Translations under genes and position numbers: made by a program
IMG/VR virus record: IMGVR_UViG_3300049489_001336
Coordinates: 1 to 64,000 of that record
Length of the DNA stretch: 64,000 nt
Origin: a virus
Strand: one strand, 5' to 3'
Shown: piece by piece, positions 10,690 through 57,725 of the stretch
How positions within the stretch are numbered: the stretch's first letter is position 1
Layout of the letters: every line of letters starts with the position of its first letter
The notes under the pieces: model-generated
The model's input: the letters and a program-made list of their open reading frames with translations, nothing else
Database searches by the model: none
Told to the model about the DNA's origin: nothing

Positions 10690-11403
10690 ATGAGCTCCAA
10701 CGCATCTTCAGGTTCGCTTTCACGGTATTACAAAGAAGTGGAAGCAACCCGTATGCTGGGTGCTGAAGAAGAGCGAGAGCTAATCCTGTTGTACAAGAAG
10801 ACAAAGGATCCGCGCGCCAAAGACAAAATACTCAAGGGGGCCTTGCGCTACGTTATTTCTGAAGCGCGCAAACACCCTAGAAGCCTGATGGAGCGCACCA
10901 TCCTTGAGGACTTGATCGCTGCAGGTAACATAGGTTTACTTCGTGCTTTAAATAAGTTCGATACCAATGCAGGCACACGGTTTTTAACCTATGCAAGTTG
11001 GTGGGTCCGTCATGAGATGCGAGAAGAAGGACGCAGGCTCGGCTTAGTACACGTACCCGCGCATGCGATGGCTAAAGGAGCTAAATCTCCTAATACGACT
11101 GAGTTCAACGAAGCAGTCACTTCTGAGATGGACATTCTCGTAGAAGACTGCGCTATAGACATCGACATGCAGCAGAGTATGCTTAAGCTTTTTACTCTGA
11201 CAAATTTATCTGTAAGAGAAGTGTTTATCGTCAAAGCGTCTTTCGGGATTCACACAGCCCCCAAAACGCTAAAGCAAATCGGACGTATTCTTGAGATTAC
11301 AGGAGAGCGCGTGCGGCAACTACGTGAGTCGGCCGTAGCCAAATTACGTAGCACCGCAGCGCGCATGCGTGACGAATCAGATGACGCAGACGCCTGTTTT
11401 TAG
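10690..11403 (+). CDS. Sigma70-family RNA polymerase sigma factor
   Basis: 237 aa. Regions 1.2/2.1 are seen at the N-terminus (LSRYYKEVEATRMLG, EEERELILLYKK), regions 2.2-2.4 in the segment from LIAAGNIGLLRALNKFD to RFLTYASWWVRHEM, and region 4 as a helix-turn-helix (TLKQIGRILEITGERVRQLR). Region 1.1 is absent and region 3 is short, so it resembles the alternative RpoH/RpoS class. It has an SD (GAGG, 6 nt before ATG). It is the only + strand gene in the replication module, divergent from the SSB-like gene and overlapping the convergent ParB gene by 4 nt. It could direct host or phage RNA polymerase to phage promoters; the phage encodes beta and beta-prime in this same window. Confidence 0.93.
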   Translation: MSSNASSGSLSRYYKEVEATRMLGAEEERELILLYKKTKDPRAKDKILKGALRYVISEARKHPRSLMERTILEDLIAAGNIGLLRALNKFDTNAGTRFLTYASWWVRHEMREEGRRLGLVHVPAHAMAKGAKSPNTTEFNEAVTSEMDILVEDCAIDIDMQQSMLKLFTLTNLSVREVFIVKASFGIHTAPKTLKQIGRILEITGERVRQLRESAVAKLRSTAARMRDESDDADACF

Positions 11404-15076: not shown

Positions 15077-16983
15077 GGGATAGGCCTCACCGAAGAAATA
15101 TGCCGGAGCATTGTACGGTCATATTTACAATCAGGGTCATACAACTTTATGTTGTATTTCTGACAGCGTTTGTAGAAGTCAGGACACGTAGCACACAACG
15201 GATTCGTAGTTGTGACTAGTTTGCTGAAATCCATTTTTAAGTCAACGGCTTTAACTTTGGCCTCATCCAAAGTATGCCGTGCGACCAAACGATAAACGGT
15301 CACTTTTCTTTTCTGACCAATTCGGTAATTACGATCAAGAGACTGTAGATAATGATCCAAGCTCCAAGGCAAGTTATAATAAATTGTATAATTTGCGGCA
15401 TTGAGGGTAACGCCGATCCCTGTTGAAACTTGGCCAATGTAAACTCTACAATCTGGGTCATTATTGAGCTTGTGCATACACTGCTGGAGTTTCTCTCGTG
15501 TGAAACCTCCGTGTACGCGCACGTAGCCGTAGCCTAGCCCAGAAACAGCCTTTTCCAAGTCGTCTAATTCAGGATGATAATTAGCCCAAATAATTACTTT
15601 ATTTTCAGGCTCTTCCAAAATGGTTTCTAACAGACCCGTGCAATGTTCCAAGCGCGAATTATGCTTGAACCTATGTGTAACGACAGGCGCCCTGTTTTTT
15701 ACGATGTGACAAAACTGCGTATACGGCTTAATTTCTTTTGCGACACAATCATGTACATGGGGACACTTCGTGCAAAGAGCAGGGTTATCCGTCGTTAAAT
15801 TGATGAAGCCACTGCTTATTTGGTCTACTTTGCCGAGAACTACGATGGGCTCATCCGCCAACACATGCGGTGCAACCGTGGTGCCTTGCTCGAAAGACAG
15901 AGATCCCTCTAGGATGTTTTCACGCAGGGCAAGCCCTGCCCCATAAGCCTTATCTCGTACAACATCATTGTACGCTATTTTCTGTTCATGGCTAATAGGG
16001 AAGACTTCATCAATGATTTGTTGATCAGGTAAATCGAGACATTCTTCTTTTGTTTTACGTAGGCAGATGAGGCGTACGCGATCATTCATGATGTCAAGGT
16101 TTTTGAAACCCAAGAGCATCTTAGGAACTGCTTCATCCTTCTCATGATCGGGAAAAACCCCAAACATCTTACGAAACTTCCACCAGTCCTCAGGACAGAA
16201 ATACGTGCCTAAAAAGCGAAGTTGTCCGTACATATCAAAAGGGGACCCCAGAGAAGGTGTCCCTGAAAGCAAAACACGACGGTATGCGCGTGCAGCCAAT
16301 GCCGTAGCCGCTTTAGTTCGGTTAGAGAACCGCGTTTTCAATTGATGCGATTCGTCTGCAAAAATGGCGTTGTAGCCTATTTTCAACAGATCGTCTGTAT
16401 ATAACGAAGCGACCGTATACGTAACAATCGTTGCTGTAGGTGCCTGGGCTTGTGCCTTTGCAATCCGCGCGAGTTTCTCTTTCTTAGAGCCATCGATGAT
16501 TAAAACATCACGTATATTCCCGTGCTTTTCAAATTCCTCAGCCCAAGTACCAAGCATCACAAGAGGACAAAGAATGAGCAGTTTGTCCCCGGTAAGACGT
16601 TGCAAATCAACAGTGATTTTGCATTTACCCAAGCCTGGTGAATAAAATAGGCCTGCGCGAATATACCGATACAAATGCAACAAACCGTCTCTTTGGTGTT
16701 GGTAAGGCGGCGTAATGAAACTAAAATCATCAGGTAAACTGCGCAACTGCTCTAATCGTTGTACGTGTGCGTTAACTTCCGGAGACAGCACTAAGGATGG
16801 AAGTGCCTTCTTAAGGTCGCCTAGTACAATCTGATGGACAGGATAGAACGCAGGGAAGCGCCAGGATTTCGTGGGACCGTTAAAAATAGCCCCATAGACA
16901 CTTTTCACTGTAGGCGGAGCGCCTTGCAGTGTAAAGATTGGGGTACCGTAAACATCGTCTAGTTTTAGCGTGGGGTTCAGCAT
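15073..16983 (-). CDS. SNF2/SWI2-family DNA helicase (translocase)
   Basis: 636 aa from ATG 16983 (MLNPTLKLDDVYG). Superfamily 2 motifs: a Q-like motif PPYQHQRDGLLHL, Walker A FYSPGLGKCKITV, motif II FADESHQL, motif III LLSGTPSLGS and motif VI QSLDRNYRIGQKRKVTVYR, which is typical of SNF2 proteins. Two cysteine clusters are unusual: CTKCPHVHDC...FCH inserted in the second RecA domain and CATCPDFYKRC...DPDC near the C-terminus; either could bind zinc or an Fe-S cluster. An ATG at 17055 would add 24 residues but would overlap the divergent portal start, so the shorter form is preferred. Confidence 0.85.
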   Translation of the reverse strand: MLNPTLKLDDVYGTPIFTLQGAPPTVKSVYGAIFNGPTKSWRFPAFYPVHQIVLGDLKKALPSLVLSPEVNAHVQRLEQLRSLPDDFSFITPPYQHQRDGLLHLYRYIRAGLFYSPGLGKCKITVDLQRLTGDKLLILCPLVMLGTWAEEFEKHGNIRDVLIIDGSKKEKLARIAKAQAQAPTATIVTYTVASLYTDDLLKIGYNAIFADESHQLKTRFSNRTKAATALAARAYRRVLLSGTPSLGSPFDMYGQLRFLGTYFCPEDWWKFRKMFGVFPDHEKDEAVPKMLLGFKNLDIMNDRVRLICLRKTKEECLDLPDQQIIDEVFPISHEQKIAYNDVVRDKAYGAGLALRENILEGSLSFEQGTTVAPHVLADEPIVVLGKVDQISSGFINLTTDNPALCTKCPHVHDCVAKEIKPYTQFCHIVKNRAPVVTHRFKHNSRLEHCTGLLETILEEPENKVIIWANYHPELDDLEKAVSGLGYGYVRVHGGFTREKLQQCMHKLNNDPDCRVYIGQVSTGIGVTLNAANYTIYYNLPWSLDHYLQSLDRNYRIGQKRKVTVYRLVARHTLDEAKVKAVDLKMDFSKLVTTTNPLCATCPDFYKRCQKYNIKLYDPDCKYDRTMLRHISSVRPIP

Positions 16984-17053
16984 GTCGGGCTTAGGGGAAC
17001 CAGGAATTTTGGATCTTGCAGGGTCAAGGGGCCGTGGCAGCCATCCTAACCCC

Positions 17054-18709
17054 ATGTTCGACTTTCTTACAGGGTTTGCACCTCGTAAGTTAAAAGACCT
17101 ATTCCGTTGGGTCGAGTACCTTTACTACAATTCCGCCCACATCTTCGCCGCGATGAAAAAATTCGCGGAATATCCCGTCACTACCGTTTCTATCAACTCA
17201 AACGATGAAGCGTTAAAAACAAATTGGGAACGTGTCCTTAAGAAGCGCATCAAAATAAAGAGCGTAGGTATCTCATCGGGTTTGGATCTGCAGTTATACG
17301 GAAATTCTTTTACCTCCGTATACCACCCTTTTAACAGATTTTTAATCTGCAATCAATGCAATAGCCGCACGGGCATTCGCAAAGTTAAGTACAATTTCCA
17401 TCTAAAGTCCCTTAGCTTTAATTACCACTGTCCGGCTTGTCATAAGCCCACGACAGGCGTCATTCATGACGAAAAAGCTTCGGACGAAAACCGAATCACG
17501 GTGATTCGGTGGGATCCGAAGTTGATGGACATTAACCACAACCCCATCACAAATGAATCCAAGTATTACTACACAATCCCGCAAGAACTAAAGCACAAAG
17601 TAGAAAAAGGGGATGCGCACATCATCAACAGCACCCCTATCGAGTTCTTGAAGGCAATCAAAGACGATAAAGTCTTTGAATTTGCCGATGGTCAAATCTA
17701 CCATATGAAACTAGGAGCCCCTGCGGGTATTTCTTCGCAGTGGGGCTTTCCGCCATTAACAGCGACTATCAAGCTGTTCTTTTATACAGCGGTACTCCGT
17801 AAAGCGAACGAAGCTATCGCTTTTGAGCACATCGTACCGTTCCGGGTATTGCATCCGGCACCCACAAGCGGTGCAGCTGACCCTGCCCAAGTCATGAACA
17901 TGATGAAGTGGCGCCAAGAACTGGCGAGCAACATCAAGCGATGGCGGCGTGACCCCTTGCACATCATGTTTGCTCCCGCTGCACTTGGCGTCACCATGAT
18001 GGGTGGCCAAGGCCGTGCGCTCCTCACATTAGGGGAGATTAAAGAGGCCGAAGAAGAAATCATCGCAGGTATGGGTATTCCCAAAGAATTCCTTTACGGC
18101 GGGCTGTCCTTTACAGGTTCTTCTATTACGTTGCGCATGTTGGAGAACCAACTAGAGACGCACACCGAACAGCTCAATGAGCAGCTGGGTTGGATTATGC
18201 AACAGACTGCCAAAATCCTGGGTTGGAAGTCTGTTGAAGCCGAATACTTGCCGTTCAAACTCATCGATGACGCTCAACAGAAACAAGCGATGTTGCAGCT
18301 TCATCAGCTCACAGGCGGCCAAATTTCGACGAGTACGTTGTTCGAAAACAACGATCTCGACATCAATGATGAGCGTAAAAAACGGCTTCAGGAATCCCTG
18401 GACGAAGCGCGCTTTCAAATGGACCTGCAAAAGAAAATGCAGCAACTCCAGAACTCGCTTACAGAACAAGCGCGTCAAGAGGCCCAATCAGGGACTGGGC
18501 TCAGTTACGACATCCAGGCTGTTTTGTCTGCGGCTGAACAAATGGTCATGCAAATCAGCCAAGCGGATCCTGGTACACAAAAGTCCATGTTGGCGCAGCT
18601 CTCTCAAGAAGATCCGGTCATGTACGCTGTCGTAAAAGACCGTTGGCAAACCATGCAAAGTATGGAAAAACAGCAAATGACTGCTTCCATGCAACCCGGA
18701 CAAGCGTGA
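17054..18709 (+). CDS. Portal protein
   Basis: 551 aa from ATG 17054 (MFDFLTGFAPRKL); the 28-residue extension upstream is antisense to the helicase 5-prime end and is not used. It forms the dodecameric ring at the capsid vertex. Evidence: the AGMGIPKEFLYGGLSFTGSS segment followed by long helices, typical of myovirus portals, the FEHIVPFRVLHP region, and a Gln-rich helical C-terminus. A zinc ribbon (CNQCNSRTG ... YHCPACHKP) is inserted in the N-terminal half, as in portals of some large phages. It is divergent from the replication operon; the roughly 70 nt between must hold promoters for both, but I see no convincing boxes. Confidence 0.85.
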   Translation: MFDFLTGFAPRKLKDLFRWVEYLYYNSAHIFAAMKKFAEYPVTTVSINSNDEALKTNWERVLKKRIKIKSVGISSGLDLQLYGNSFTSVYHPFNRFLICNQCNSRTGIRKVKYNFHLKSLSFNYHCPACHKPTTGVIHDEKASDENRITVIRWDPKLMDINHNPITNESKYYYTIPQELKHKVEKGDAHIINSTPIEFLKAIKDDKVFEFADGQIYHMKLGAPAGISSQWGFPPLTATIKLFFYTAVLRKANEAIAFEHIVPFRVLHPAPTSGAADPAQVMNMMKWRQELASNIKRWRRDPLHIMFAPAALGVTMMGGQGRALLTLGEIKEAEEEIIAGMGIPKEFLYGGLSFTGSSITLRMLENQLETHTEQLNEQLGWIMQQTAKILGWKSVEAEYLPFKLIDDAQQKQAMLQLHQLTGGQISTSTLFENNDLDINDERKKRLQESLDEARFQMDLQKKMQQLQNSLTEQARQEAQSGTGLSYDIQAVLSAAEQMVMQISQADPGTQKSMLAQLSQEDPVMYAVVKDRWQTMQSMEKQQMTASMQPGQA

Positions 18710-18716
18710 TTAAGCA

Positions 18717-19229
18717 ATGTTTGACGATTTCGTAAAAGCACTAGAAAGCGCACAGACGCTTCCCGAGGCTTCCGATAACGCGAGCCCTATTCCTGACTTA
18801 TTACAGGGCAACGTTGTAAATAACTTGGTGCGCACAGTCACTAGTAGCGACTCCGACAAAATTCCAGGAACATCCGAATATAACCTAAATTTTCATTGTG
18901 CTCGCCTTACGATAGGTAAAATCCAAGTAGATTTCCAACAGGGGCAAGCTATCTACGAAGATATCGATGATAGCGAGCGTTTGAAGGAAATCATGGACAA
19001 GTCCCTAAGTGGGGCAGCTATCGTTAGTAAGAAAATAGAAACCTTTCTTAAGGACGGGACAATTGTAATCTGGCTTGAGTGGCTTGAACGAAACGCTAAA
19101 CCAATTGTACCTAAAAAAGAGCGAGATTACATGATGACAGACGAGCTCCTTACGCCGGAACACTCGTCTGTCATTAATGATGGTACTGCGGAACAAACAG
19201 ATGCTTACGGCAATGATTATGACGAATGA
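18717..19229 (+). CDS. Hypothetical protein downstream of portal
   Basis: 170 aa, starting 7 nt after the portal stop and so in the same transcript. A beta-strand-containing core (NLNFHCARLTIGKIQVDFQ) is followed by helices and an acidic tail (EQTDAYGNDYDE). It is likely virion-related by position. The frame stays open for another 43 codons beyond the TGA stop. Confidence 0.75.
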   Translation: MFDDFVKALESAQTLPEASDNASPIPDLLQGNVVNNLVRTVTSSDSDKIPGTSEYNLNFHCARLTIGKIQVDFQQGQAIYEDIDDSERLKEIMDKSLSGAAIVSKKIETFLKDGTIVIWLEWLERNAKPIVPKKERDYMMTDELLTPEHSSVINDGTAEQTDAYGNDYDE

Positions 19230-19309
19230 CCACATCCCCTGATTAAATATGCCTCTTGCAGAGGATGTCACTTCTCAGGACAGTGGGATGGGTCGTACTT
19301 CCATGACGC

Positions 19310-20035
19310 TCAACTCTCAGCCGTAGGCAATCCTACCGAAATTGCCCGAAGTTGATTATCGGTCAGGTCGTTTGGTTTAGATGTTTGTTGTTTGTTATGG
19401 GAAACTCCCATGCTCGGAACTGGTGAGTTTTTCGGAATCACAGGCGTACGCACCTGAGTCCTCGGCGGCGGCACCGTCGAGGGCTTACTGTATGCGCGGT
19501 TCTTGTAACACCGATGGCATAGTTTGGGCGTTACCCATGCAACGCCTTGCTTGACTTTCGAGAACACGACCCCTGCATTGACCTCGGCGATCTCTTTGCA
19601 TGCCGGATTTTTGCACTGATAGACTTCCGCTTGGACGTCTGCCCAGTTTTGGGGAAATGCTACCTGTAGCCGTTCAAGGCCATGCAGAGAGCAGTCGATT
19701 TTCCTCCCGATTTCAATCTCTCGGAAGCACCTGCAAAGATACTCCTCCTGACGCGGAAGCGTATCTCGGCACAATACACACGTGCTGCGCTCCGTGCGAG
19801 GTGCATCGAGCTGCCACAACAACCTGTACAAGGCCGCCCACGCGTAGAGCTCATCGTAGGACCAGTGACGTCCTCGATCTGCGGCCAACAGGATTGCTTG
19901 GTCTAGTTTGGAGTTGTGAACCCCCCATACTGCGATTTTACCCAGCTGGTTGTCCATCTCCAGAAAGATTTCATCCGATAGGATGCTCAATCTGTCGACA
20001 GCCTCCAACAAAGTATCTACTCGTGATTTTGTCAC
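19310..20035 (-). CDS. Cysteine-rich multi-zinc-ribbon protein
   Basis: 241 aa, GTG start at 20035 with strong SD AGGAGG. The N-terminal 85 residues are helical. Then come three metal-site pairs: CVLCRDTLPRQEEYLCRCF, QCKNPACKEI and LCHRCYKN. The C-terminus is Pro/Thr-rich and disordered. It is the only minus-strand gene inside the head module, divergent from the RNA polymerase gene, so it may be a DNA- or RNA-binding regulator expressed at another time. No family recognised. Confidence 0.7.
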   Translation of the reverse strand: MTKSRVDTLLEAVDRLSILSDEIFLEMDNQLGKIAVWGVHNSKLDQAILLAADRGRHWSYDELYAWAALYRLLWQLDAPRTERSTCVLCRDTLPRQEEYLCRCFREIEIGRKIDCSLHGLERLQVAFPQNWADVQAEVYQCKNPACKEIAEVNAGVVFSKVKQGVAWVTPKLCHRCYKNRAYSKPSTVPPPRTQVRTPVIPKNSPVPSMGVSHNKQQTSKPNDLTDNQLRAISVGLPTAES

Positions 20036-20066
20036 GTTCCCTCCTAGGGGTTTTGGTGCAGCGAAA

Positions 20067-20085
20067 ACACCCGCCAGGTGTTTCC
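20067..20085. terminator. Hairpin upstream of the RNA polymerase gene
   Basis: A 7-bp stem AAACACC/GGTGTTT with loop CGCCA lies in the 109-nt divergent intergenic region. On the + strand it is followed by a T/C-rich stretch. It could be a weak terminator that insulates the polymerase gene, or a regulatory structure in the leader of the minus-strand zinc-ribbon gene. Confidence 0.4.
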
Positions 20086-20106
20086 ATATCCTTTTACCAG
20101 TAACGG

Positions 20107-20136
20107 TTGTGTAATTAGGAGGGGGGCGTGTATACT
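20107..20136 (+). promoter_or_regulatory. Promoter-like sequence abutting the RNA polymerase start
   Basis: TTGTGT (20107-20112), an 18-bp spacer and TATACT (20131-20136). The -10 box ends 8 nt before the ATG at 20145, so transcription would start at about the start codon and give a leaderless mRNA. The same geometry occurs before 55312 and 58454. The -35 match is only partial. Confidence 0.45.
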
Positions 20137-20154
20137 AAGGCGCCATGGCCTTAA
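20128..20154 (+). other. Possible minicistron overlapping the RNA polymerase start
   Basis: A GTG at 20128 follows an unusually strong SD (AGGAGG, 20117-20122, within AGGAGGGGGG) at normal distance and opens an 8-codon frame (VYTKAPWP) ending at TAA 20152-20154. It overlaps the polymerase ATG at 20145 in another frame. The same SD is 22 nt from the polymerase ATG, too far to serve it directly. Coupling or repression through this short frame is possible, but if transcription starts at the TATACT box the minicistron would not be in the mRNA. Confidence 0.35.
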
Positions 20155-23100
20155 ATTTGCAACCTGCGATGCTCAGTGCGTCTGAACGGCGCGAACAAAT
20201 TCGTCAAAAGACCATCACAGGGCTGAAAGACCTATTTCCGCTCATTGGTAAGAATTCAACGCTTGATATTCGTAATATCGCTATCAAGCGAAAAGAATAT
20301 TCTACGAACGAGCAAAAAGACGCGCTCATGAGTGGGCGTACGTTGCACGAGCCTATCCAAGCAACGCTTGTTCTTAAGGATAACAAGACAGGCAAAGTGC
20401 TTGATGAAAAGCAACGCACGTTGCTTCACCTTCCTTATTTCACACAACGCTACACGTTTATCGTAGGCGGCAACGAGTACGACATTCCTAGCCAGCTCCG
20501 TTTGAAGCCCGGTGTCTATACGCGCGAGCGCAACAACGGTGAATTTGAAGCCGCTTTCAACTTGAGCAAAGGCGATAACTTCCGTATCGCCATGGAGCCC
20601 GAGTCCGGCAAAATACACATGGAGCTGGACGCTTCAAAAATCCCGCTTTATCCCCTTTTACGTTCTCTCGGGGCGACTGACACAGAGATTAAGAACTACT
20701 GGGGCGCAGAACTGAAAGACGTAAATGCGACTCTCGGTAAAGACAAAGAAGAAGTCGTATTAAACAAAATTATTAACAAGATCAAGCGCGCAGGAGACGC
20801 CGTTCCAGGTACCCTTGAAGGCAAGCGGGATTTTGTACGCAATTATTTTGAAAACACTGCGATGGACGGGGAGGTAAATGAGCGTACGCTAGGTAAGCCT
20901 GTAACTAAAGCAAACGCCTTAGCGCTGCTCACAGCTTCTAAAAAGCTTATCGACGTACACCGGGGTCACGCAAAAGGCGATGATCGTGACAGTCTTGAGT
21001 TTAAGACGATGCACGGTGTTGAAGACTTTTTCCGTGAGCGCTTAGACAAAGAAGCACGCCGCACGATCTCCAAAAAGATTGTCGCACGGCTAAACCAGTC
21101 AAAGACAAACGATATTGGTACTATCGTACCGAATTCTGCGTTTTCTAAGTCGATTAACATGTTTTTGACAAATGCGGCGCTATCGTCCCAGCCCGCACAA
21201 ATTAACCCCGTAGAGATTATCGATTACGCGTCTAAAGTCACTTCGCTTGGCGAAGGCGGCATGAGCAGCGAACGTCAAGTAACCAACGAATCTCGTAAAA
21301 TTCACAATACCCATTTCGGTATTTTAGATCCAGTACGTACCCCTGAAACAGGGCGTGCTGGAATTGACGTACGCAGTAGTTTAGCCGCATTTAAAGACGA
21401 AAAGGGAAACCTTTACTCTTTAATGCAAGACGCGAAAACAGGGAAAATGACCCACGTGCCGGTCATGACCCTGGCGAAAAGTGTTGTTGCGTTTCCTCGG
21501 CAAGATCATCGTAAGCTATTAGACGCGTTCAAAAACGGAGATATACATTCCGTTCAACGTAAAGACGTTGATTATATCCTGCCTGATCCCACGTACATGC
21601 TTAGCCCTGCTACCGCATTAGTGCCTCTGCTAAACGGAATGCAAGGTAACCGCTCTATGATGGGCGCCAAGTTTCAGACACAAGCGTTGCCTTTAGTAGA
21701 TCGCGAAGCGCCTTTCGTACAAGCCGCAGCTCCAAGAAAAGGGCAAAGCATGGAGCGTGAAGTCGCGCGCCTCGTAGTGCCCACATCCCCTGTCGACGGA
21801 ACCATTGATAAGATTGACGACGACTATATCTACATTCGTCCCTCTGCCAAAACAGCGGCAGCGGCCAGTGATCTCGTTAAGCTGCCTTACGACAGCTATT
21901 TTCCTTTGGCGTCTAAAACGTATCTACACAATGAAATAAAAGTAAAACCAGGGCACGTGGTCAAACAAGACCAGATGCTAGCAGAGTCTAACTTCACAAA
22001 AGACGGAACACTAGCATTAGGTAAAAACCTTTCTGTCGCATACCTCGCTTACTACGGTAAAAACTCCAACGACGCAGTCGTGATTAGCGAAGACGCAGCT
22101 AAAAAGCTGACGTCTGAGCACATGTACAAAGAGTCTTTGCCGAAGACGAGTGATGTCGTCACAGGTAAAGATAAATACCGCGCGTACTACGGAATGCGTT
22201 TTACGCAAGCGCAATTAGATAAACTGGATGAAAACGGCGTTGCCAAAAAAGGGGCAATTCTCGCTAAAGGCGACCCCCTCATTCTTGCGTTACGCAAGGC
22301 GGCGCCCACGCCAGAAGCAACACTGTTGGGTAATTTTCATAAGTCCCTTGTTAAGCCGTATCGTGATGCCACGATTACCTGGGACAAAGTAACTCCTTGC
22401 GTAGTGCAAGACGCCGTAAACGCGGCACGACAAATCATGGTTACTGTGCGTACGCAAGAGCCTATGAAAATCGGCGACAAACTCTCTAACCGCTTTGGCG
22501 GTAAAGGCGTTGTCTCTGAGATTATTCCCACGAACCGCATGGTTCGTGACGAGAGCGGTAAACCTATTGACGTACTCTTTACGTCTGCAGGTATCGTCAG
22601 TCGTATCAATCCGGCACAGGTCGTGGAAGCTGCTTTAGGCAAAGTAGCAGAAAAGACAGGCAAGCCTATCATCTTGCCCCAGTTTCACTCAGACGACAAT
22701 GTGCAGTTTGCAAAAAAGCTCTTAAAAGAGCACGGTGTTAAAGACAAAGAAACAGTTTACGACCCAATCTCTGACCGGGAAATCAAAGATATTTTCGTAG
22801 GACGTTCCTACATTCACAAATTATTTAAGTCTACAGAGACTAACTATGCAGCCCGTGGCGTTTCTGATTATGACATTAATCAGCAACCTACCCGTGGCGG
22901 TGAAGAAGGTGCAAAAGGGTTGGGCAAGATGGAGATTAACGCTCTTCTTGCGCATAACGCTCGCAATGTCCTCAAAGAGGCTTTAACCCTCAAAAGTGAG
23001 AAAAGCGATGCCTTCTGGCGTGCGTACGAATTTGGCTTGCCGACTCCGCCGCCTAAAACGCCTTTTGTATCTGAAAAATTGGTATCAATGCTCCAAGGTG

Positions 23101-24536
23101 CAGGCATTAACGTCAATAAACAAGGGACGTTAGTAAGCCTCGCCCCCATGACCGACACGGAAGTAACGAAGATCTCAGCAGGAGGACTTTCGGTTCCCAG
23201 CTTAGAAAAAAGTAAGTCGTTCATGGTCAACGCCAAGAACATGGCTCCCGAGACAGGTGGATTATTCGATCCTAACCTTACCGGGGGTATGTCGGGCACT
23301 AAATGGGCTCATATTGACTTGACCGAGCCTATTGTTAATCCCGTGTTTGAGGACAGCGTACGCCGTCTTCTCGACTTGAGCAAAAAGAAGCTCAAAGACG
23401 AAATAAATACGATTGGTGGCGAAGGCATCAAGAACAAACTCAATGCCTTAAACCTTGACCAATTAGAAAAAGACCTTTTGGCTAAATCTAAAACAGCCAG
23501 AGGGCCTGAACTCGATAACGTCGTAAAGAAAATAAAGTATATCAGAGCGCTAAAAGCGGCAGGGCATACTAAAGCAGGTGACGCCTACACGCTGTCCAAG
23601 CTTCCGGTAATCCCTCCGGTAATGCGGCCTATTTTGCCTTCGGCACGGGGTAATGAGCTACAGGTATCAGACATAAACTATTTGTATCGCGATGCTGCGT
23701 TAGCCAGTGTGGCGTTGGCTAATGCAAAAGAAACCGAAGTGCCCACGTTAGTGCAAAACGCACGTGCGCATCTTCACGACACGACGAGTGCTCTGTTTGG
23801 CCTTACTACACCCACGAGTCCACAATTACAGGGACGTGATGTAAAAGGCTTTATCGAACAAATCGCAGGTTCGGGGTCCCCTAAGAGTGGTTTCTTGCAC
23901 AAGAAAGTACTCAAGCGCCAGCAAGATCTTACCGGACGTGCAACGGCTACGCCCGATAATACTTTGGATATTGATCAAATAGGTATTCCAGAGGATATGC
24001 TTTGGACGACCTATTCTAAGTTCATTATGCGGGGCCTCATCAGTCAAGGGTACAAGCCTTTGGACGCACAAAAAATGATCGAGGAGCGTCACCCTGCAGC
24101 AAAAACGGTGCTTGACCAAGAAACAAAACAACGTCCGGTTTTCGTAAACCGTGCACCGTCACTACATAAGCACAATTTCGTTGCAGCGTACCCTGTGCCT
24201 GTATCGGGTAAATCTCTGCGTGTAAACCCGTTTATGGAGCGTGGTCAAAACCTTGACTACGACGGCGACGCCATGCAGATCCACGTACCTGTCACAACTA
24301 AGGCGGTGGAAGAGGCCCGAAAGCTAACGCTTTCTAATCTGTTGTTTACGGATAGTCACGCCGATGACTTGGTTATTTTCCCACAGCACGAAGCTCTTTT
24401 AGGTACGTATTTGGCGACAAAACCACAGGTGACGAGTGCGGTTCGTAAATTCAAAACCAAAAAAGAAGCTATGGACGCGTATCATCGCGGGGAGATCACT
24501 ATGAATACTCCCGTCGAGATACTAGAATTGACATAA
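20145..24536 (+). CDS. RNA polymerase beta subunit fused to N-terminal beta-prime
   Basis: 1463 aa. Residues 1 to about 1050 match beta: the DAVVISEDAAKKL region (cf. FEDSILVSE), IGDKLSNRFGGKGVVSEI (cf. GDKMAGRHGNKGVIS) and GIVSRINPAQVVEAALG. The rest matches the N-terminal part of beta-prime: KKVLKRQQDLTGRATATPD, RPVFVNRAPSLHKHN, and the catalytic loop N-L-D-Y-D-G-D at 1369-1375 with all three Mg-binding aspartates (D1371, D1373, D1375). The usual N-terminal beta-prime zinc ribbon cysteines are absent. The protein ends about 80 residues after the catalytic loop; the remaining beta-prime is encoded at 25385-27190. Expression with virion genes suggests a late or packaged enzyme. Confidence 0.93.
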   Translation: MALNLQPAMLSASERREQIRQKTITGLKDLFPLIGKNSTLDIRNIAIKRKEYSTNEQKDALMSGRTLHEPIQATLVLKDNKTGKVLDEKQRTLLHLPYFTQRYTFIVGGNEYDIPSQLRLKPGVYTRERNNGEFEAAFNLSKGDNFRIAMEPESGKIHMELDASKIPLYPLLRSLGATDTEIKNYWGAELKDVNATLGKDKEEVVLNKIINKIKRAGDAVPGTLEGKRDFVRNYFENTAMDGEVNERTLGKPVTKANALALLTASKKLIDVHRGHAKGDDRDSLEFKTMHGVEDFFRERLDKEARRTISKKIVARLNQSKTNDIGTIVPNSAFSKSINMFLTNAALSSQPAQINPVEIIDYASKVTSLGEGGMSSERQVTNESRKIHNTHFGILDPVRTPETGRAGIDVRSSLAAFKDEKGNLYSLMQDAKTGKMTHVPVMTLAKSVVAFPRQDHRKLLDAFKNGDIHSVQRKDVDYILPDPTYMLSPATALVPLLNGMQGNRSMMGAKFQTQALPLVDREAPFVQAAAPRKGQSMEREVARLVVPTSPVDGTIDKIDDDYIYIRPSAKTAAAASDLVKLPYDSYFPLASKTYLHNEIKVKPGHVVKQDQMLAESNFTKDGTLALGKNLSVAYLAYYGKNSNDAVVISEDAAKKLTSEHMYKESLPKTSDVVTGKDKYRAYYGMRFTQAQLDKLDENGVAKKGAILAKGDPLILALRKAAPTPEATLLGNFHKSLVKPYRDATITWDKVTPCVVQDAVNAARQIMVTVRTQEPMKIGDKLSNRFGGKGVVSEIIPTNRMVRDESGKPIDVLFTSAGIVSRINPAQVVEAALGKVAEKTGKPIILPQFHSDDNVQFAKKLLKEHGVKDKETVYDPISDREIKDIFVGRSYIHKLFKSTETNYAARGVSDYDINQQPTRGGEEGAKGLGKMEINALLAHNARNVLKEALTLKSEKSDAFWRAYEFGLPTPPPKTPFVSEKLVSMLQGAGINVNKQGTLVSLAPMTDTEVTKISAGGLSVPSLEKSKSFMVNAKNMAPETGGLFDPNLTGGMSGTKWAHIDLTEPIVNPVFEDSVRRLLDLSKKKLKDEINTIGGEGIKNKLNALNLDQLEKDLLAKSKTARGPELDNVVKKIKYIRALKAAGHTKAGDAYTLSKLPVIPPVMRPILPSARGNELQVSDINYLYRDAALASVALANAKETEVPTLVQNARAHLHDTTSALFGLTTPTSPQLQGRDVKGFIEQIAGSGSPKSGFLHKKVLKRQQDLTGRATATPDNTLDIDQIGIPEDMLWTTYSKFIMRGLISQGYKPLDAQKMIEERHPAAKTVLDQETKQRPVFVNRAPSLHKHNFVAAYPVPVSGKSLRVNPFMERGQNLDYDGDAMQIHVPVTTKAVEEARKLTLSNLLFTDSHADDLVIFPQHEALLGTYLATKPQVTSAVRKFKTKKEAMDAYHRGEITMNTPVEILELT

Positions 24537-24537
24537 C

Positions 24538-24738
24538 ATGGCTGACTTTTATAAACGGGGTAGAACGCTAGCCCTGGCTAAACTAGGGTTTCTTAGTTCG
24601 ATTGACCCGGAAGATCTCCCCGAGTTTTTAGCTGTCTCCAAACGGCGGCAGTTACAAAAACTTTATGAAGCGAATGCGGCAACAGGACTACCTGCAGGTG
24701 GTCTCATCGAAACTCCTAATTACCCCACAACGTTCTGA
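24538..24738 (+). CDS. Small protein with N-terminal KLG motif
   Basis: 66 aa, starting 2 nt after the fused polymerase gene. It begins MADFYKRGRTLALAKLGF, the clearest example of a G-x3-AL-x-KLG(F) element also found at 25143, 41451 and, less exactly, 28515 and 53676. The C-terminal half is polar. It is one of three small genes separating the two beta-prime halves. No function recognised. Confidence 0.7.
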   Translation: MADFYKRGRTLALAKLGFLSSIDPEDLPEFLAVSKRRQLQKLYEANAATGLPAGGLIETPNYPTTF

Positions 24739-24750
24739 ACAGAGGTAAGT

Positions 24751-25146
24751 ATGGCAACGCCAGGACAAGCATTTTGGCAAACGGCGGTCACCCAATTACT
24801 TGACTTGGTGTTTGTTATCGCCACACCTATTGCGATTACCTTGACACGGCGTCTTATTGCTGTGCTCGAAACCAAGACAGGCGTGGACGTTGCCGAACGT
24901 CACGAACGGTTGATTGACAGTGCCATAGAAAAAGGCATTGCATACGCGCACGAGCAGTCACGCAAAGCCTTAAAAGCCTCCGAAAAACCCATCCCCGGTG
25001 ATGAAAAGAAACGCGCGGCCTTAGCTTTCGCCACAGGGCTGTTAGAAGAGGCGGGAGGCGTAACCTATGTCAAAGACACGTTAGAACGTCTTATCGAAGC
25101 CAAACTCAACATGAGCCGTCCTGCTGACAAACGAGATACGTTATGA
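24751..25146 (+). CDS. Holin-like protein (LLH-type)
   Basis: 131 aa with SD AGAGG upstream. One N-terminal membrane helix (about residues 15-40, LLDLVFVIATPIAITLTRRL) is followed by a cytoplasmic helical domain (ERLIDSAIEKGIAYAHEQS) and a basic C-terminus. This layout and the AIEKGI-type repeat resemble the phage holin LLH family, whose members form lysis pores. No endolysin is next to it, and its place between RNA polymerase halves is odd, so another membrane role is possible. Confidence 0.5.
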   Translation: MATPGQAFWQTAVTQLLDLVFVIATPIAITLTRRLIAVLETKTGVDVAERHERLIDSAIEKGIAYAHEQSRKALKASEKPIPGDEKKRAALAFATGLLEEAGGVTYVKDTLERLIEAKLNMSRPADKRDTL

Positions 25147-25385
25147 ATAATTACCAGGCAGGGTGTTTGTCTGCGTTAACCAAACTCGGATTTTCCGCAG
25201 ACGAATTTGCTGAGCTTGTACAGCAAGACGATACAGACGAGTTTGTGAATCAAACGAGCACAAACCCAGAGATTCTTAAAAAGCTAAACACAACGCCTGC
25301 GTGGTCTGATAAGTCTACGCTAGACGCAGGTGACGTAGGCACGCGGGTCCATGAAATGGGCTTACCTCGGTTTGGTGGTGTCTAA
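25143..25385 (+). CDS. Small protein with N-terminal KLG motif
   Basis: 80 aa. It starts MNNYQAGCLSALTKLGF, the same N-terminal element as the 24538 gene. It overlaps the holin-like gene by 4 nt (ATGA) and its stop overlaps the ATG of the beta-prime C-terminal gene (TAATG), so translation of the polymerase half is coupled to it. The remainder is acidic and polar. Function unknown. Confidence 0.7.
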   Translation: MNNYQAGCLSALTKLGFSADEFAELVQQDDTDEFVNQTSTNPEILKKLNTTPAWSDKSTLDAGDVGTRVHEMGLPRFGGV

Positions 25386-27190
25386 TGGCAAAAACGCTGG
25401 GTCAGTATCTTTTAGATGAAGTTATTCCTGCGCCCTATCGCCCTAAAGACGGCGTTTACGGTACCAAAGAGCTCAAGAAGAGCATGGTGCAACTCGCCAA
25501 GGATGACCCAGCGAAATACGTAAAAACAATCACGCAAGTAAAACGACTAGGCGATGAGTTTGCCACCAGCATGGGTATCTCGGTTGGCCTAGACGACATC
25601 GCGCCGCAGTACAAGGAGCGCGACGCCATCACTAAGCCAGCGCTTGCTCAAGTTAAAAAAGCAAAGACACCCGAAGACCGTCAAAAGATAATCGCAGAGA
25701 CCCAAGAAAAGCTTTTGCAGTATGCGATTAACCACCCAGGAACCATGGGTGAAATGGCGCGTTCGGGCGCTCGCGGTTCTGCTTTGCAGTTAATGCGTGC
25801 AGTAGGCGCCCCTGCAGCAAGTAACGACGAACATGACCAGTTGCAGCCCTGGCTCACTACGAGAAGTTATTCTGAAGGGTTACGGCCTTCAGAATGGTGG
25901 GCGAATGGGCGTGAAGCCCGTATGTCTGCGGTTAAATCAAACATTGAGGTAACCGAGCCAGGAGATCTCTCAAAAATCCTCGTTAACAACACGAGCGATC
26001 AAGTTGTAACTACCGCTGACTGTGGCACACGAAATGGCCTTTTATTTAAGACTACAGAATCAGCGCCTATCGATAGATTTACTGCGCGTGATGAGCATGG
26101 AATTACACGCAATACGTTAGTTACGCCGCGCATACTCGGAGATTTAAATAAAAAGGGAATTGCCAAAATAATGGTTAGGTCCCCGATGACCTGCGAGTCC
26201 ATGCAGGGCGTATGCCAGAAGTGTATTGGCCTTAACTCGGTAGGGGCATTGAATCGCATCGGCGATAACGTCGGAATTCGCGCGAGTCAGGCCTTGAGTG
26301 AGCCTCTTACACAGCTTGCGCTAAATGCGAAGCACGGCGTGCGTATGTCAGGCCAGAATCCGCTGGACGTGTCGGGTTTGGCAGGATTTCGCATGTTGCT
26401 AGAATCCCCGTCTGCCTTCAAAAACAAGGCTACGCTCGCACCTGAGAACGGAAAAATAACTGATATAAAAAAGGCACCGCAAGGTGGTCACTTTATTACC
26501 CTTAATAGTAATAAAGTATATGTCATGGCAGGGCTTAACCCCGTAGTCTCTGTAGGAGACACGGTTCACGCGGGAGACGTGCTGTCTGAAGGCGTCCCTA
26601 AGCCCGACGAAGTTGTTAAGTACAAAGGGCTCGGTGCAGGACGCGAATATCTCGTAGATAAATTGACGGGTATCTACCAAAACAAAACGGATAGGCGTCA
26701 CTTAGAGGTTTTGGCCAAGTCCCTACTAAATCACGTACAAATAGAAGAAGTCGATGATGATGACTCTGCAGAGCACGGGTTAGTGCGTGGAGATATCATT
26801 GACTACAACCGTTTTAGAAATATTGCGTCAACCAAAGCAGTGGAAACGCCCTTAAATCAAGCAGAGGGGTTGTATTTAGGGGAAGGAATTCTACATCATC
26901 TTGTAGGTACGCGAATTACCGCGCCCCTTATTAATGAGTTGCGCCAGGCAGGCATCACCAAGGTCAAAACCGCAATCAAGGCGCCTGTCGTTTCTCCTGT
27001 AATGGAACCCGCGACGAGAAACCCTTTACTCAACCCTGATTGGCTCGTACGCTTGGGCCACCGCTACTTAAAGAAGTCCATACTGGATGGTGCCCAGCAT
27101 GGTCAAGCTTCAAACGTTCACGGGACGCACCCCCTACCCGGTTTAGTTTTTAGCACTGAGTTCGGTGACGGCGAAGATGGCCGTTACTAA
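25385..27190 (+). CDS. RNA polymerase beta-prime, C-terminal part
   Basis: 601 aa. It continues beta-prime where the 20145-24536 protein stops. Bridge helix: residues 127-142 (SGARGSALQLMRAVGA). Trigger-loop region: about 155-185 (TTRSYSEGLRPSEWWANG). Second zinc site complete: C213 (ADCGT), C270, C277, C280 (TCESMQGVCQKC). Then GIRASQALSEPLTQLALNAKHG, matching the [21 protein letters not shown] region of bacterial beta-prime. Together the two genes give a complete catalytic core without alpha or omega. Translation is coupled to the small gene upstream. Confidence 0.92.
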   Translation: MAKTLGQYLLDEVIPAPYRPKDGVYGTKELKKSMVQLAKDDPAKYVKTITQVKRLGDEFATSMGISVGLDDIAPQYKERDAITKPALAQVKKAKTPEDRQKIIAETQEKLLQYAINHPGTMGEMARSGARGSALQLMRAVGAPAASNDEHDQLQPWLTTRSYSEGLRPSEWWANGREARMSAVKSNIEVTEPGDLSKILVNNTSDQVVTTADCGTRNGLLFKTTESAPIDRFTARDEHGITRNTLVTPRILGDLNKKGIAKIMVRSPMTCESMQGVCQKCIGLNSVGALNRIGDNVGIRASQALSEPLTQLALNAKHGVRMSGQNPLDVSGLAGFRMLLESPSAFKNKATLAPENGKITDIKKAPQGGHFITLNSNKVYVMAGLNPVVSVGDTVHAGDVLSEGVPKPDEVVKYKGLGAGREYLVDKLTGIYQNKTDRRHLEVLAKSLLNHVQIEEVDDDDSAEHGLVRGDIIDYNRFRNIASTKAVETPLNQAEGLYLGEGILHHLVGTRITAPLINELRQAGITKVKTAIKAPVVSPVMEPATRNPLLNPDWLVRLGHRYLKKSILDGAQHGQASNVHGTHPLPGLVFSTEFGDGEDGRY

Positions 27191-27205
27191 ATCGGTAGTA
27201 AAGAC

Positions 27206-27234
27206 TTGGGCTAAACAATAAACCGGACTATGAT
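27206..27234 (+). promoter_or_regulatory. Sigma70-like promoter for the capsid-associated genes
   Basis: TTGGGC (27206-27211), 17-bp spacer, TATGAT (27229-27234), followed by TAAC. It lies in the 75-nt gap after the beta-prime gene. Spacer and downstream bases resemble the promoter at 36806-36834 (both have AAACAA after the -35 box and GATTAAC at the -10 box). Confidence 0.65.
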
Positions 27235-27265
27235 TAACGCGTTACCTCTAGAGGAGCAGGTACAA

Positions 27266-28507
27266 ATGTCGAATTCACCGCTGTTCAAGCGCGCCTTCGT
27301 TCGTGGATTAAATGCTGAGCTGATTCGTCAAGGTGTTGTTGTTTATCCGTCGAAGGAAGCCGCGGATGCGACAGCCGATTTCGTCGCGGACGAATCGGGA
27401 ATGCCTGATCCCTACCTGGAAAACGATAAGCTCAACCTTAAAGTCGCGAGCGTACTCGTCGAACACCTGACGAAAGGTGCTGAATACCAGTGCCAGCAGG
27501 CCGGTAATAAGTTCAACCCCGCCGTAACCAAGACAGCACAGGCCGAAACGGCTGTTAGCCTCGCCAATAGCGACGCTTGGGCCATCATGGAAAAGTGCGC
27601 AGCCGAGACGGGTTCTCTGGTCGAAGGCGGCGACAACAAGAATGACATGCCCGCCGCTGCGTCGAATAACGCAGAAGCCGCACTCGAAAACAAGCAGCGC
27701 CCCGAAAACTACGCCAACCTGGGCGAAAAGGGCGTCGGCAATTACGAGGGCAAGGGCGAAGGCACCGTCGGCACTGAGCAGAAACACCCTGAAGCGCCTA
27801 AGAGCACTGACAGCGGTTCCAACTCAGTAACGGAACAGAGCAGCAAGTCAGCTTCTCTGGCTTCGATTATTCGCCGAATCGGCAAGACTGCCGAGAGCAC
27901 CGGTAGCCTTATCACCGGCGGCGGTAACCCCAATGACCTGCCCGCTGCCGCAGCCAGCAACGCGGAAGCCGCACTTGAACAGAGCATGCGCCCCGAAGGT
28001 TACGCCAACCTGGGCGAACGCGGCGTAGGTCAGACCGAGATGCAAGTTCCTGGCAACGCGGTCGTAGGCACCGAGCAGCCGCACAGCCTTGCCCCTGGCG
28101 CCACGGACTCCGGATCCAACTCTATCATCGAGCACTCAAAGAACGCGTTTGATCAACTCTTTGAGAATACAGCTAAGCAGGTAGTTCCTTACCTGCCTGA
28201 GAACATGCAGGATGAGCAGAAGGTTGCACACGTTCGAGCCATGATGGGCCTCGAAACGTCTGACCGCGCTGGTTACCTGCAGAACTTGTACACAGGCCTC
28301 GGCGCCAAGAAGGAAGCCGCCGCTGCAGTGCGCAACCACTTTATCAAGGCCGCCGAAGAGTCCTGTGATTCTTCTGAAGAAAAGAAGGAGGAGGGCCCTG
28401 GCCTCCCCGCCTTCATGAAGAAAGAAGAAAAATCTGAGGAGAAGAAGGAAGAAAAGTCCGCTTCTCTCAGCGCGCTCCGCAGTCGCCTTAAGACCGTCAA
28501 TGCCTGA
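27266..28507 (+). CDS. Putative virion protein with an 82-residue tandem duplication
   Basis: 413 aa from ATG 27266 (MSNSPLFKRAFVRG), which has AGGAG 9 nt upstream; the ATG at 27230 lies in the promoter region and has no SD. The middle contains two copies of a segment (TGSL..GG.N.ND.PAAA ... YANLGE(K/R)GVG ... TDSGSNS), separated by a short linker. The C-terminus is extremely Glu/Lys-rich. KTA/KSA tripeptides mark the repeat borders (VTKTAQ, IGKTAE, EKSASL). Codon use is rich in C-ending codons, like the capsid gene, suggesting high expression. I recognise no family; a scaffold or internal head protein is plausible. Confidence 0.7.
   Translation: MSNSPLFKRAFVRGLNAELIRQGVVVYPSKEAADATADFVADESGMPDPYLENDKLNLKVASVLVEHLTKGAEYQCQQAGNKFNPAVTKTAQAETAVSLANSDAWAIMEKCAAETGSLVEGGDNKNDMPAAASNNAEAALENKQRPENYANLGEKGVGNYEGKGEGTVGTEQKHPEAPKSTDSGSNSVTEQSSKSASLASIIRRIGKTAESTGSLITGGGNPNDLPAAAASNAEAALEQSMRPEGYANLGERGVGQTEMQVPGNAVVGTEQPHSLAPGATDSGSNSIIEHSKNAFDQLFENTAKQVVPYLPENMQDEQKVAHVRAMMGLETSDRAGYLQNLYTGLGAKKEAAAAVRNHFIKAAEESCDSSEEKKEEGPGLPAFMKKEEKSEEKKEEKSASLSALRSRLKTVNA
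27605..28147 (+). repeat. Two-copy coding repeat in the 27266 gene
   Basis: Copies at about 27605-27850 and 27896-28147. The protein repeats align over roughly 82 residues with identities such as TGSL, AEAALE, YANLGE, GTEQ and TDSGSNS. DNA identity is lower, so it is an old internal duplication. Confidence 0.75.
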
Positions 28508-41450: not shown

Positions 41451-42074
41451 ATGTACTACGAATACGGACAGCGCGCAGCCTTACAAAAGCTTGGCATGGG
41501 TGCCGCACCTATCCCTTACGCAGGTGCGTCTACACCGACTAACGACATGTTCTCCGCAAACAAACGGCAGGACATTTGGAGCGAAGTGGACAGCACGCCT
41601 ATCGCAATGAGTGGCGAAGAGTCTGCACAAGGAATGCCGAGTGCTCCAAAAAGCGCGAGCTACACAGGCGTAGTCGCTCAGGGCAGTGGCGACGGATTTC
41701 GCGGAGATCCTGAACGTAAAAACAAGTTTGAAGATGGGGTGCGGCGAGCGTTTCAAAGCAACGCCGATATCGATAACAGCACCACCTCTGAACCCGGATT
41801 TGCGTCTCCTAAATTAGCCAATAGCTTTTTCAACATCGGCAAAGGCCTACGTCCGAGCAGCTTAGGTCCGCGCAGTACTTCTTCATTAATGGGTAAGACG
41901 TCACCCAGCATGCCAAAACCTGGCGGCAATTTAAATGCGTCTTTGAACCCCATGAAGTCCCCGGTGATTAAACCCCCGACACCCATGCAGCCTAATTTAG
42001 CGCGGGGAGCTCACATGTCCCTTATGGGATCAAGCGTCAACTCTCCAATGCATCGGTTTACGAGTCCTTTATGA
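41451..42074 (+). CDS. Putative virion protein with N-terminal KLG motif
   Basis: 207 aa. It begins MYYEYGQRAALQKLGMG, matching the N-terminal element of the small genes beside the RNA polymerase. The rest is Ser/Pro/Met-rich and probably disordered, with KPGGNLNASLNPMKSP-like stretches. It overlaps the next gene by 4 nt. The ordered N-terminus with a disordered body suggests a protein that is attached to a partner through the KLG segment. Confidence 0.65.
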   Translation: MYYEYGQRAALQKLGMGAAPIPYAGASTPTNDMFSANKRQDIWSEVDSTPIAMSGEESAQGMPSAPKSASYTGVVAQGSGDGFRGDPERKNKFEDGVRRAFQSNADIDNSTTSEPGFASPKLANSFFNIGKGLRPSSLGPRSTSSLMGKTSPSMPKPGGNLNASLNPMKSPVIKPPTPMQPNLARGAHMSLMGSSVNSPMHRFTSPL

Positions 42075-57344: not shown

Positions 57345-57725
57345 TCATTTGAAGCAATATTGCTTCTTATATGTTTTTGCAGTCCACAGACGGATCGCTG
57401 TGACTTTCTCAAAGGGCAATTCCTCGACCGTGAAAGGATCCACTTTCGGAGGTGAAAATACGCCCTTTTCAGGGGTATAACGCGGACGCAACGGAGCCAA
57501 CAGCACAACAGAACCGCGAACCCCAACAAGGTATCCGCGTTTCTCTCGATCTCCCAAGGAGAGATATACAAACGCAGGAGCGACGCGCTGAAGCTCCTTG
57601 TAAAGCGCTTCGCGCACTGCATTTGCGTATGCATGTTGCGCATCTACTTCTTTCACGCCTTGGTGTACAACTAGGCCCGTTACGGTAACCAGCGACGCTG
57701 CTGCAGCCACGCCGAGCCACAGCAT
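57345..57725 (-). CDS. Small membrane-anchored protein
   Basis: 126 aa. N-terminal membrane helix (WLGVAAAASLVTVTGLVV, residues 3-20) and a soluble domain with beta strands (AFVYLSLGDREKRGYLVG; GSVVLLAPLRPRY). Start immediately follows the stop of the 57726 gene. It might be a spanin- or exclusion-type protein, but there is no lipobox and no recognised family. Confidence 0.65.
   Translation of the reverse strand: MLWLGVAAAASLVTVTGLVVHQGVKEVDAQHAYANAVREALYKELQRVAPAFVYLSLGDREKRGYLVGVRGSVVLLAPLRPRYTPEKGVFSPPKVDPFTVEELPFEKVTAIRLWTAKTYKKQYCFK

Follow-up and report, generated by a model that had tools for sequence, protein, structure and literature searches.

Core chains of a putative virion-packaged, sigma-guided phage RNA polymerase, with beta and half of beta-prime in one chain and beta-prime split after the catalytic barrel

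Background

Split and fused multisubunit RNA polymerases are already known from phages, and the closest counterpart of the enzyme described here belongs to Salmonella phage Arash, which can be grown on a Salmonella laboratory host; its genome is deposited (OQ632216) and its virion proteome is published. The window analysed here, bases 1 to 64000 of the 189,879-bp IMG/VR virus record IMGVR_UViG_3300049489_001336, encodes a polymerase of the same design: beta is fused to the first half of beta-prime, and the rest of beta-prime is encoded by a separate downstream gene. Arash (Gp206 and Gp216) and Vibrio phages D69, D148 and D181 share with the window the two chains, the fusion, the break, the portal neighbourhood and an orthologous virion sigma factor; they are 34-37% identical to it over the fused chain and 31-32% over the C-terminal chain, with 0.6-4.7 kb of other genes in the gap. 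In the Arash paper the chains go by the names beta and beta-prime, with no word of a fusion or a split (PMC10585845).

Other systems share some of these features. The jumbo-phage enzymes (phiKZ, AR9) also lack alpha and omega and have beta-prime split after the barrel, and one such enzyme is packaged in the virion, but their beta is itself split and separate from beta-prime, giving four to five chains, and no sigma homologue is recognised in them (PMC7598289, PMC13282480). In cyanobacteria and plastids, RpoC1 and RpoC2 likewise divide beta-prime between the catalytic barrel and the bridge-helix half, whereas RpoB is separate and alpha and omega are present. The virion enzymes phi14:2 gp66 (crAss-like) and P23-45 gp96 hold both barrels in one polypeptide and are very divergent, barely alignable to cellular enzymes; in the window, barrels, bridge helix and trigger loop are spread over two genes, and members of the Arash-type family readily match the beta and beta-prime of bacteria, with the clamp and the second zinc site kept. 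The mReC polymerases resemble that of the window in coming from tailed phages and in having a beta and beta-prime that can be recognised from the sequence of IMG/VR contigs. The filter of the mReC study required NADxDGD and a beta-prime match of at least 800 amino acids (aa) (PMC7481178, Weinheimer and Aylward 2020), and the window enzyme would fall outside that study because its NLDYDGD loop and split beta-prime fail this filter. A search aimed at the mReC clade returned only one-chain relatives among the matches listed. The bacterial RpoB-RpoC fusions of Helicobacter and Wolbachia are head-to-tail with a short joint, as in the window; they have a full-length beta-prime with its zinc ribbon, and alpha and omega are present. 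In the papers searched there was no description of the fused-and-split design, of its history or of its sigma partner.

Results and discussion

A fused chain and a separate beta-prime C-terminal chain

The two polymerase genes and their parts lie in the window as follows.

20145-24536, plus strand: fused RNA polymerase chain, 1463 aa (open reading frame (ORF), Pfam, orthologue of Arash Gp206, structure model)
23256-23400, plus strand: fusion joint and beta-prime start, GGLFDPNLTGGMSGTKWAHIDLTEPIVNPVFED (comparison with RpoC and relatives)
24249-24269, plus strand: catalytic loop NLDYDGD (sequence)
25385-27190, plus strand: beta-prime C-terminal chain, 601 aa (Pfam Rpb1_5, orthologue of Arash Gp216, structure model)
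25886-25993, plus strand: bridge helix, residues 168-203, a 36-residue helix in the model aligned with RpoC 769-804
26021-26224, plus strand: second zinc site, Cys 213, 270, 277 and 280, equivalent to RpoC C814, C888, C895 and C898
26270-26341, plus strand: trigger-loop helix SEPLTQLALNAKHGV, with the H936 equivalent kept and Asn at the R933 equivalent (model helix 296-316)

Pfam domains occur in the 1463-aa chain in the order Rpb2_3, Rpb2_6, Rpb1_1 and Rpb1_2; thus, the chain is beta followed by the first half of beta-prime. Beta is complete (about residues 1-1035), not divided into two or more chains as in jumbo phages; the N-terminal half of beta-prime (about 1036-1463) follows it directly, the beta C-terminus continuing into GGLFDPNLTGGMSGTKWAHIDLTEPIVNPV. 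The beta-prime N-terminal zinc ribbon is missing at this joint, where GGLFD..TGG..G.KWAHI..EP stands in place of DGLFC...[4 Cys]...GHIELA.P; the four-cysteine ribbon, which lies between GLFC and GHIEL, is absent from the window and the relatives printed and present in both bacterial sequences of the alignment. The catalytic loop occupies residues 1369-1375 and is followed by 88 residues. Over its full length the fused chain is 35% identical to Arash Gp206. A model of residues 330-1463 (predicted local distance difference test (pLDDT) 81.5, predicted template modelling score (pTM) 0.64) finds its best Protein Data Bank (PDB) matches among beta chains and places two adjacent helices where the clamp helices are expected.

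The 601-aa chain starts just before the segment equivalent to TTVGR and holds the bridge helix, trigger loop, second zinc site and C-terminus. Its model (pLDDT 87, pTM 0.75) is closest in the PDB to bacterial beta-prime (E 2.8e-28), and the cysteines of the second zinc site are kept in all 60 relatives that include the C-terminal part. A preliminary description, made from the letters of the window, had placed here a phage multisubunit-type polymerase with beta and half of beta-prime fused, beta-prime split, no N-terminal zinc ribbon and a position within a virion module. ORFs and Pfam bear out its coordinates, gene order and domain content, the relatives agree with its overall picture, the alignment with RpoC agrees on the ribbon, and its estimate of about 80 residues after the catalytic loop is close to the count.

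Residues at the active site were compared among 80 non-redundant phage sequences (E. coli numbering). D460, D464, G463, R425, K1065, K1073, R678, R1106 and beta D814 are invariant, D462 is kept in 78 of the 80, and H936 in all 60 with the C-terminal part. The claim that every catalytic residue is retained therefore stands for D460/D462/D464, K1065, K1073, R678, R1106, R425 and H936, but not for trigger-loop R933 or beta E813, both of which are Asn in the window. R933 is kept in 4 of 60 relatives, and E813 is Asn in 41 of the 80 sequences. The active polymerase of AR9 is also without an R933-type trigger-loop residue, so the loss of R933 need not mean an inactive enzyme. Two relatives carry Asn at D462, the middle catalytic aspartate.

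Break point, relatives and history

Among 50,697 phage records, Arash, D69, D148 and D181 are the four that cover most of both chains, and all have the same fusion and the same break as the window. A single-sequence search of viral contigs with the C-terminal chain gave no matches; alignments that included Arash and D69 were needed. In IMG/VR the C-terminal chain then matched 26 loci and the fused chain 108, of which 80 were kept. A one-chain profile scan gave at least 523 confirmed relatives; the 80 kept are all one-chain beta/beta-prime proteins, most of about 2000-2400 aa. Most of the distant relatives consist of one chain of 2000-2900 aa. The first locus set comprises two-chain, one-chain and three-chain architectures, and beta is fused to beta-prime, or at least to its start, in all sampled relatives. 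In the three-chain loci beta retains the first ~80 residues of beta-prime (GGLFD...EPIVNPVF), which indicates a fused gene broken a second time.

The gene boundary of related two-chain phages corresponds to RpoC 551-570; it follows the catalytic double-psi barrel and precedes the TTVGR segment. In one-chain relatives this position is bridged by no more than a few residues, for example NGKK. The same fused-gene end recurs in 69 non-redundant sequences that form one clade, to which the isolates Arash, D69, D148 and D181 belong; thus, the split is far beyond chance. AR9 gp154 likewise begins before its TTVGR-like segment. The cyanobacterial gamma chain extends beyond the end of the phage chain by ~68 residues, with its partner beginning close to profile position 31; this places the cyanobacterial break in the same connector, some tens of residues further on. 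The break point had been thought not to be a standard arrangement, but a split after the barrel is common to the virion and non-virion enzymes of jumbo phages and to cyanobacteria (PMC7598289). The unusual part is the combination of this known break with the beta fusion.

A tree was built from 80 phage sequences with two bacterial ones as outgroup. One of the latter, OR844998.1 (locus L005 of our set; L numbers denote loci), is deposited as 'Staphylococcus phage SA 1306 Kay' and was rejected as a phage enzyme with an unsplit chain: genes for ribosomal S7, EF-G and EF-Tu lie next to it, and it is a bacterial str operon with rpoB and rpoC, a contaminant of the phage collection. The 80 phage sequences form one group relative to this outgroup. 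The 69 that are not one-chain form one clade with Shimodaira-Hasegawa-like approximate likelihood ratio test (SH-aLRT) support of 99, also 99 under a mixture model, and this split clade reaches 100 when 26 more one-chain sequences are added (37 in all). The three-chain sequences are one clade nested within the two-chain clade (SH-aLRT 99-100). The two-chain clade appears to lie beside or within the one-chain relatives. Because beta-prime of the outgroup is unsplit, the simplest history suggested by the tree would be that rpoB and rpoC fused once to give a single long chain, which then broke once behind the barrel and later once more in the clamp; the root is not firm given the small outgroup (two sequences) and the long one-chain branches.

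The uninterrupted beta-prime of the one-chain relatives bears on two other explanations of the split. It is what would be expected if the break were an artefact that assembly, a frameshift or decay had made out of a one-chain gene, and the preliminary description had named such relatives as a sign of this; they exist, but they probably represent the ancestral state, since the same break occurs in independent metagenomes and in four isolate genomes, both frames are open in relatives 69-73% identical to the window, and mass spectrometry detects both Arash products. The chance of an artefact is therefore practically negligible. Conversely, the two-chain form might be ancestral, with one-chain proteins arising later by the joining of two genes. 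The two clades may indeed be sister groups (the one-chain sequences form one group at SH-aLRT 84), but an unsplit ancestor needs fewer changes given the unsplit bacterial outgroups, and the split sequences remain one clade at 100 with 37 one-chain sequences included, which makes this order of events very unlikely. An intron or mobile element still present at the split was also considered and rejected: Rfam finds nothing at 19000-28000, and no intron was found at the split of the window.

Insertions and extensions occur elsewhere in the family. In D181 (L004, 5604-6566) the fused gene is interrupted by a group I intron that carries a homing endonuclease and matches RF00028 at 100.7 bits; a group I intron is also present in D148, and the related D69 is without one. 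Insertions of about 130-450 aa lie within the fused chain of L059, L060, L069, L081, L082, L097, L102, L106 and L107, and Pfam finds no intein domain in that of L059. The C-terminal chain extends several hundred residues past the polymerase part in L054, L080 (1112 aa) and L105 (976 aa). In the window it ends in FGxGxxGRY (27160-27190), an ending conserved in L002 and L003, and an aromatic last residue is also found in several one-chain relatives. Fused-chain relatives about 40% identical (L120, L121 and L124) come from Desulfovibrio assemblies (two isolates and one metagenome-assembled genome), a hint that Desulfovibrio is the host for some members.

Sigma factors, alpha and virion content

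The remaining genes that bear on the function of the polymerase lie in the window and further along the record.

16970-18709, plus strand: portal protein gene, 5' of the polymerase (start codon as given by the ORF tool; homology to Arash and D69)
10690-11403, plus strand: second phage sigma factor (Sigma70_r2 and r4; similar to Arash gp196)
Record positions 162143-162820, beyond the window: virion-type sigma, orthologue of Arash Gp010 (34% identity)
Record positions 72156-73604: SNF2-type helicase like Arash Gp217 (homology)

The portal is 33% identical to Arash portal Gp204 and 36% to its D69 homologue, and a portal gene lies at most 4 kb upstream of the polymerase in 47 of 62 related loci. 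The record carries two sigma genes, orthologues of Gp010 and gp196, in contrast to the jumbo-phage enzymes with no recognisable sigma. A Gp010-type sigma is present in all 36 records of at least 149 kb with this polymerase, two-chain and one-chain alike, and full-length matches to it among the 50,697 phage records occur only in the four phages that have the polymerase. Distances of sigma and polymerase are correlated (Mantel r 0.91, n 36); this demonstrates common descent and not that the two bind. The preliminary description had the polymerase parts right, but its 64-kb view did not reach this sigma partner.

No omega was found in the genome. The only match to alpha (14.2 bits, 57450-57650) is below the cut-off and was rejected, the encoded protein having no Pfam match, and no alpha exceeded the cut-off in any of the 36 large records with this polymerase. 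The absence of both subunits, as first described, is thus upheld.

Mass spectrometry of Arash virions detected 3516 spectra for Gp206, the most for any protein, with 1210 for Gp216, 467 for sigma Gp010 and 1148 for helicase Gp217 (PMC10585845). Arash is the one phage in which both chains are known to be in the virion. Spectra per residue, a rough guide to copy number only, are 2.3 for Gp206, 2.0 for Gp216, 2.0 for Gp010 and 2.4 for Gp217, against 1.5 for the portal and 4.3 for the capsid; the counts for the first four would fit similar numbers of copies. The published account of the virion proteins makes no mention of gp196, the second sigma (PMC10585845).

Proposed mechanism

It is probable, on these grounds, that the two chains are the core of a virion-packaged, injected, alpha-less and sigma-guided bacterial-type polymerase for early genes. 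Both chains would be made late together with the Gp010-type sigma, and all three would then be packaged and injected with the DNA, to transcribe early genes without the host polymerase. The first chain would supply beta and the catalytic half of beta-prime, joined covalently, and this fusion likely takes over the assembly role of alpha, making alpha dispensable. The second chain would supply the bridge helix, trigger loop, second zinc site and jaw, and would dock where beta-prime is divided after the catalytic barrel, as the corresponding chains of jumbo phages and cyanobacteria do. The choice of promoters would fall to the dedicated phage sigma encoded at 162143-162820 of the record and carried in the same particle; the second sigma (10690-11403) is probably synthesised in the infected cell and directed at later genes.

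Several observations weigh against this mechanism. The Arash authors themselves noted that abundant enzymes might be carried over in purified particles (PMC10585845), the per-residue counts are approximate, co-divergence is expected of any two core genes and proves no binding, and R275, a sigma-contact residue on the clamp helices, is not conserved. Carry-over is central to one alternative, in which the polymerase is a non-virion type made during infection for late transcription. Its genes do lie among late, structural genes, and the 189,879-bp record, which may be incomplete, yielded only one multisubunit polymerase (a search for a T7-type polymerase also gave no match, but neither did its control, so that result is uninformative). 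The prominence of Gp206 in the Arash particle, with Gp216 and the sigma similar per residue, nevertheless argues otherwise; any carry-over would be at least selective, as gp196 is not among the virion proteins mentioned, and adjacency to the portal fits a protein that is made late and packaged. We consider late transcription distinctly unlikely. The change of R275 would also suit a second alternative, in which the sigmas work with the polymerase of the host, and the phage core, like those of AR9 and phiKZ, relies on a different specificity factor; jumbo phages with a polymerase are reported without sigma, and those with sigma without a polymerase (PMC7598289, PMC13282480). This separation is not seen here, where the virion-type sigma accompanies the polymerase in 36 of 36 large genomes and is full-length in no other of the 50,697 phage records, and the model suggests that the clamp helices are retained as a helical pair. 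A host role for the sigmas thus seems unlikely, and a packaged polymerase with its own sigma remains the preferred explanation.

Genes between the chains

Three small genes separate the two chains in the window.

24538-24738, plus strand: KLG small gene 1, 66 aa (ORF)
24751-25146, plus strand: small membrane-type (holin-like) gene, 131 aa (ORF)
25143-25385, plus strand: KLG small gene 2, 80 aa (ORF)

The last overlaps the holin-like gene by 4 nucleotides (nt) and the beta-prime C-terminal gene by 1 nt (25385). Homologues of KLG small gene 1 occur only in L032, L033, L034 and L038; those of the holin-like gene in L032, L034, L037 and L038, with a weak one in L097; and those of KLG small gene 2 in L032, L037 and L038, with weaker ones in a few others. 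The holin-like gene has no Pfam match and a weak match to PHROG 17576, a family without an assigned function; its likeness to holins was judged by eye. The set is confined to the nearest relatives of the window (69-73% identical), and elsewhere the gap varies from 1 bp to 7.7 kb and is filled by other genes. The inserts were first taken as part of the arrangement, a view that is not sustained: they are lineage-specific, and a place for them in the split design was rejected.

The motif MxxYxxGxxxALxKLG[FM] occurs within the first ~18 residues of five proteins, against 0.2 expected in shuffled proteins. These are encoded at 24538-24738, 25143-25385 and 41451-42074 of the window and at 112740-113171 and 113197-114051 of the record. 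The motif is possibly a virion-targeting or membrane-facing tag.

Conclusions

The two-piece form of the polymerase occurs in many related viruses. A wider reading, which we regard as evenly poised, is that these belong to a large, mostly undescribed tailed-phage family in which fusion freed the enzyme from alpha, a dedicated co-packaged sigma was kept or gained to give a complete sigma-dependent holoenzyme in the virion, and one branch was re-split at a joint reached independently by cyanobacteria and jumbo phages. The fuse-then-split history would provide a worked example of how split subunits originate, with the beta-prime joint as a repeated breaking point. Reviews describe phages with their own multisubunit polymerase as lacking sigma, and sigma-bearing phages as relying on the host polymerase (PMC7598289, PMC13282480); the Arash-type family appears to have both, and where this has been measured, in a single case, the sigma is in the particle. 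If this sigma works on the phage core, the enzyme would depend on sigma yet have no alpha, which is regarded as the universal platform for assembly.

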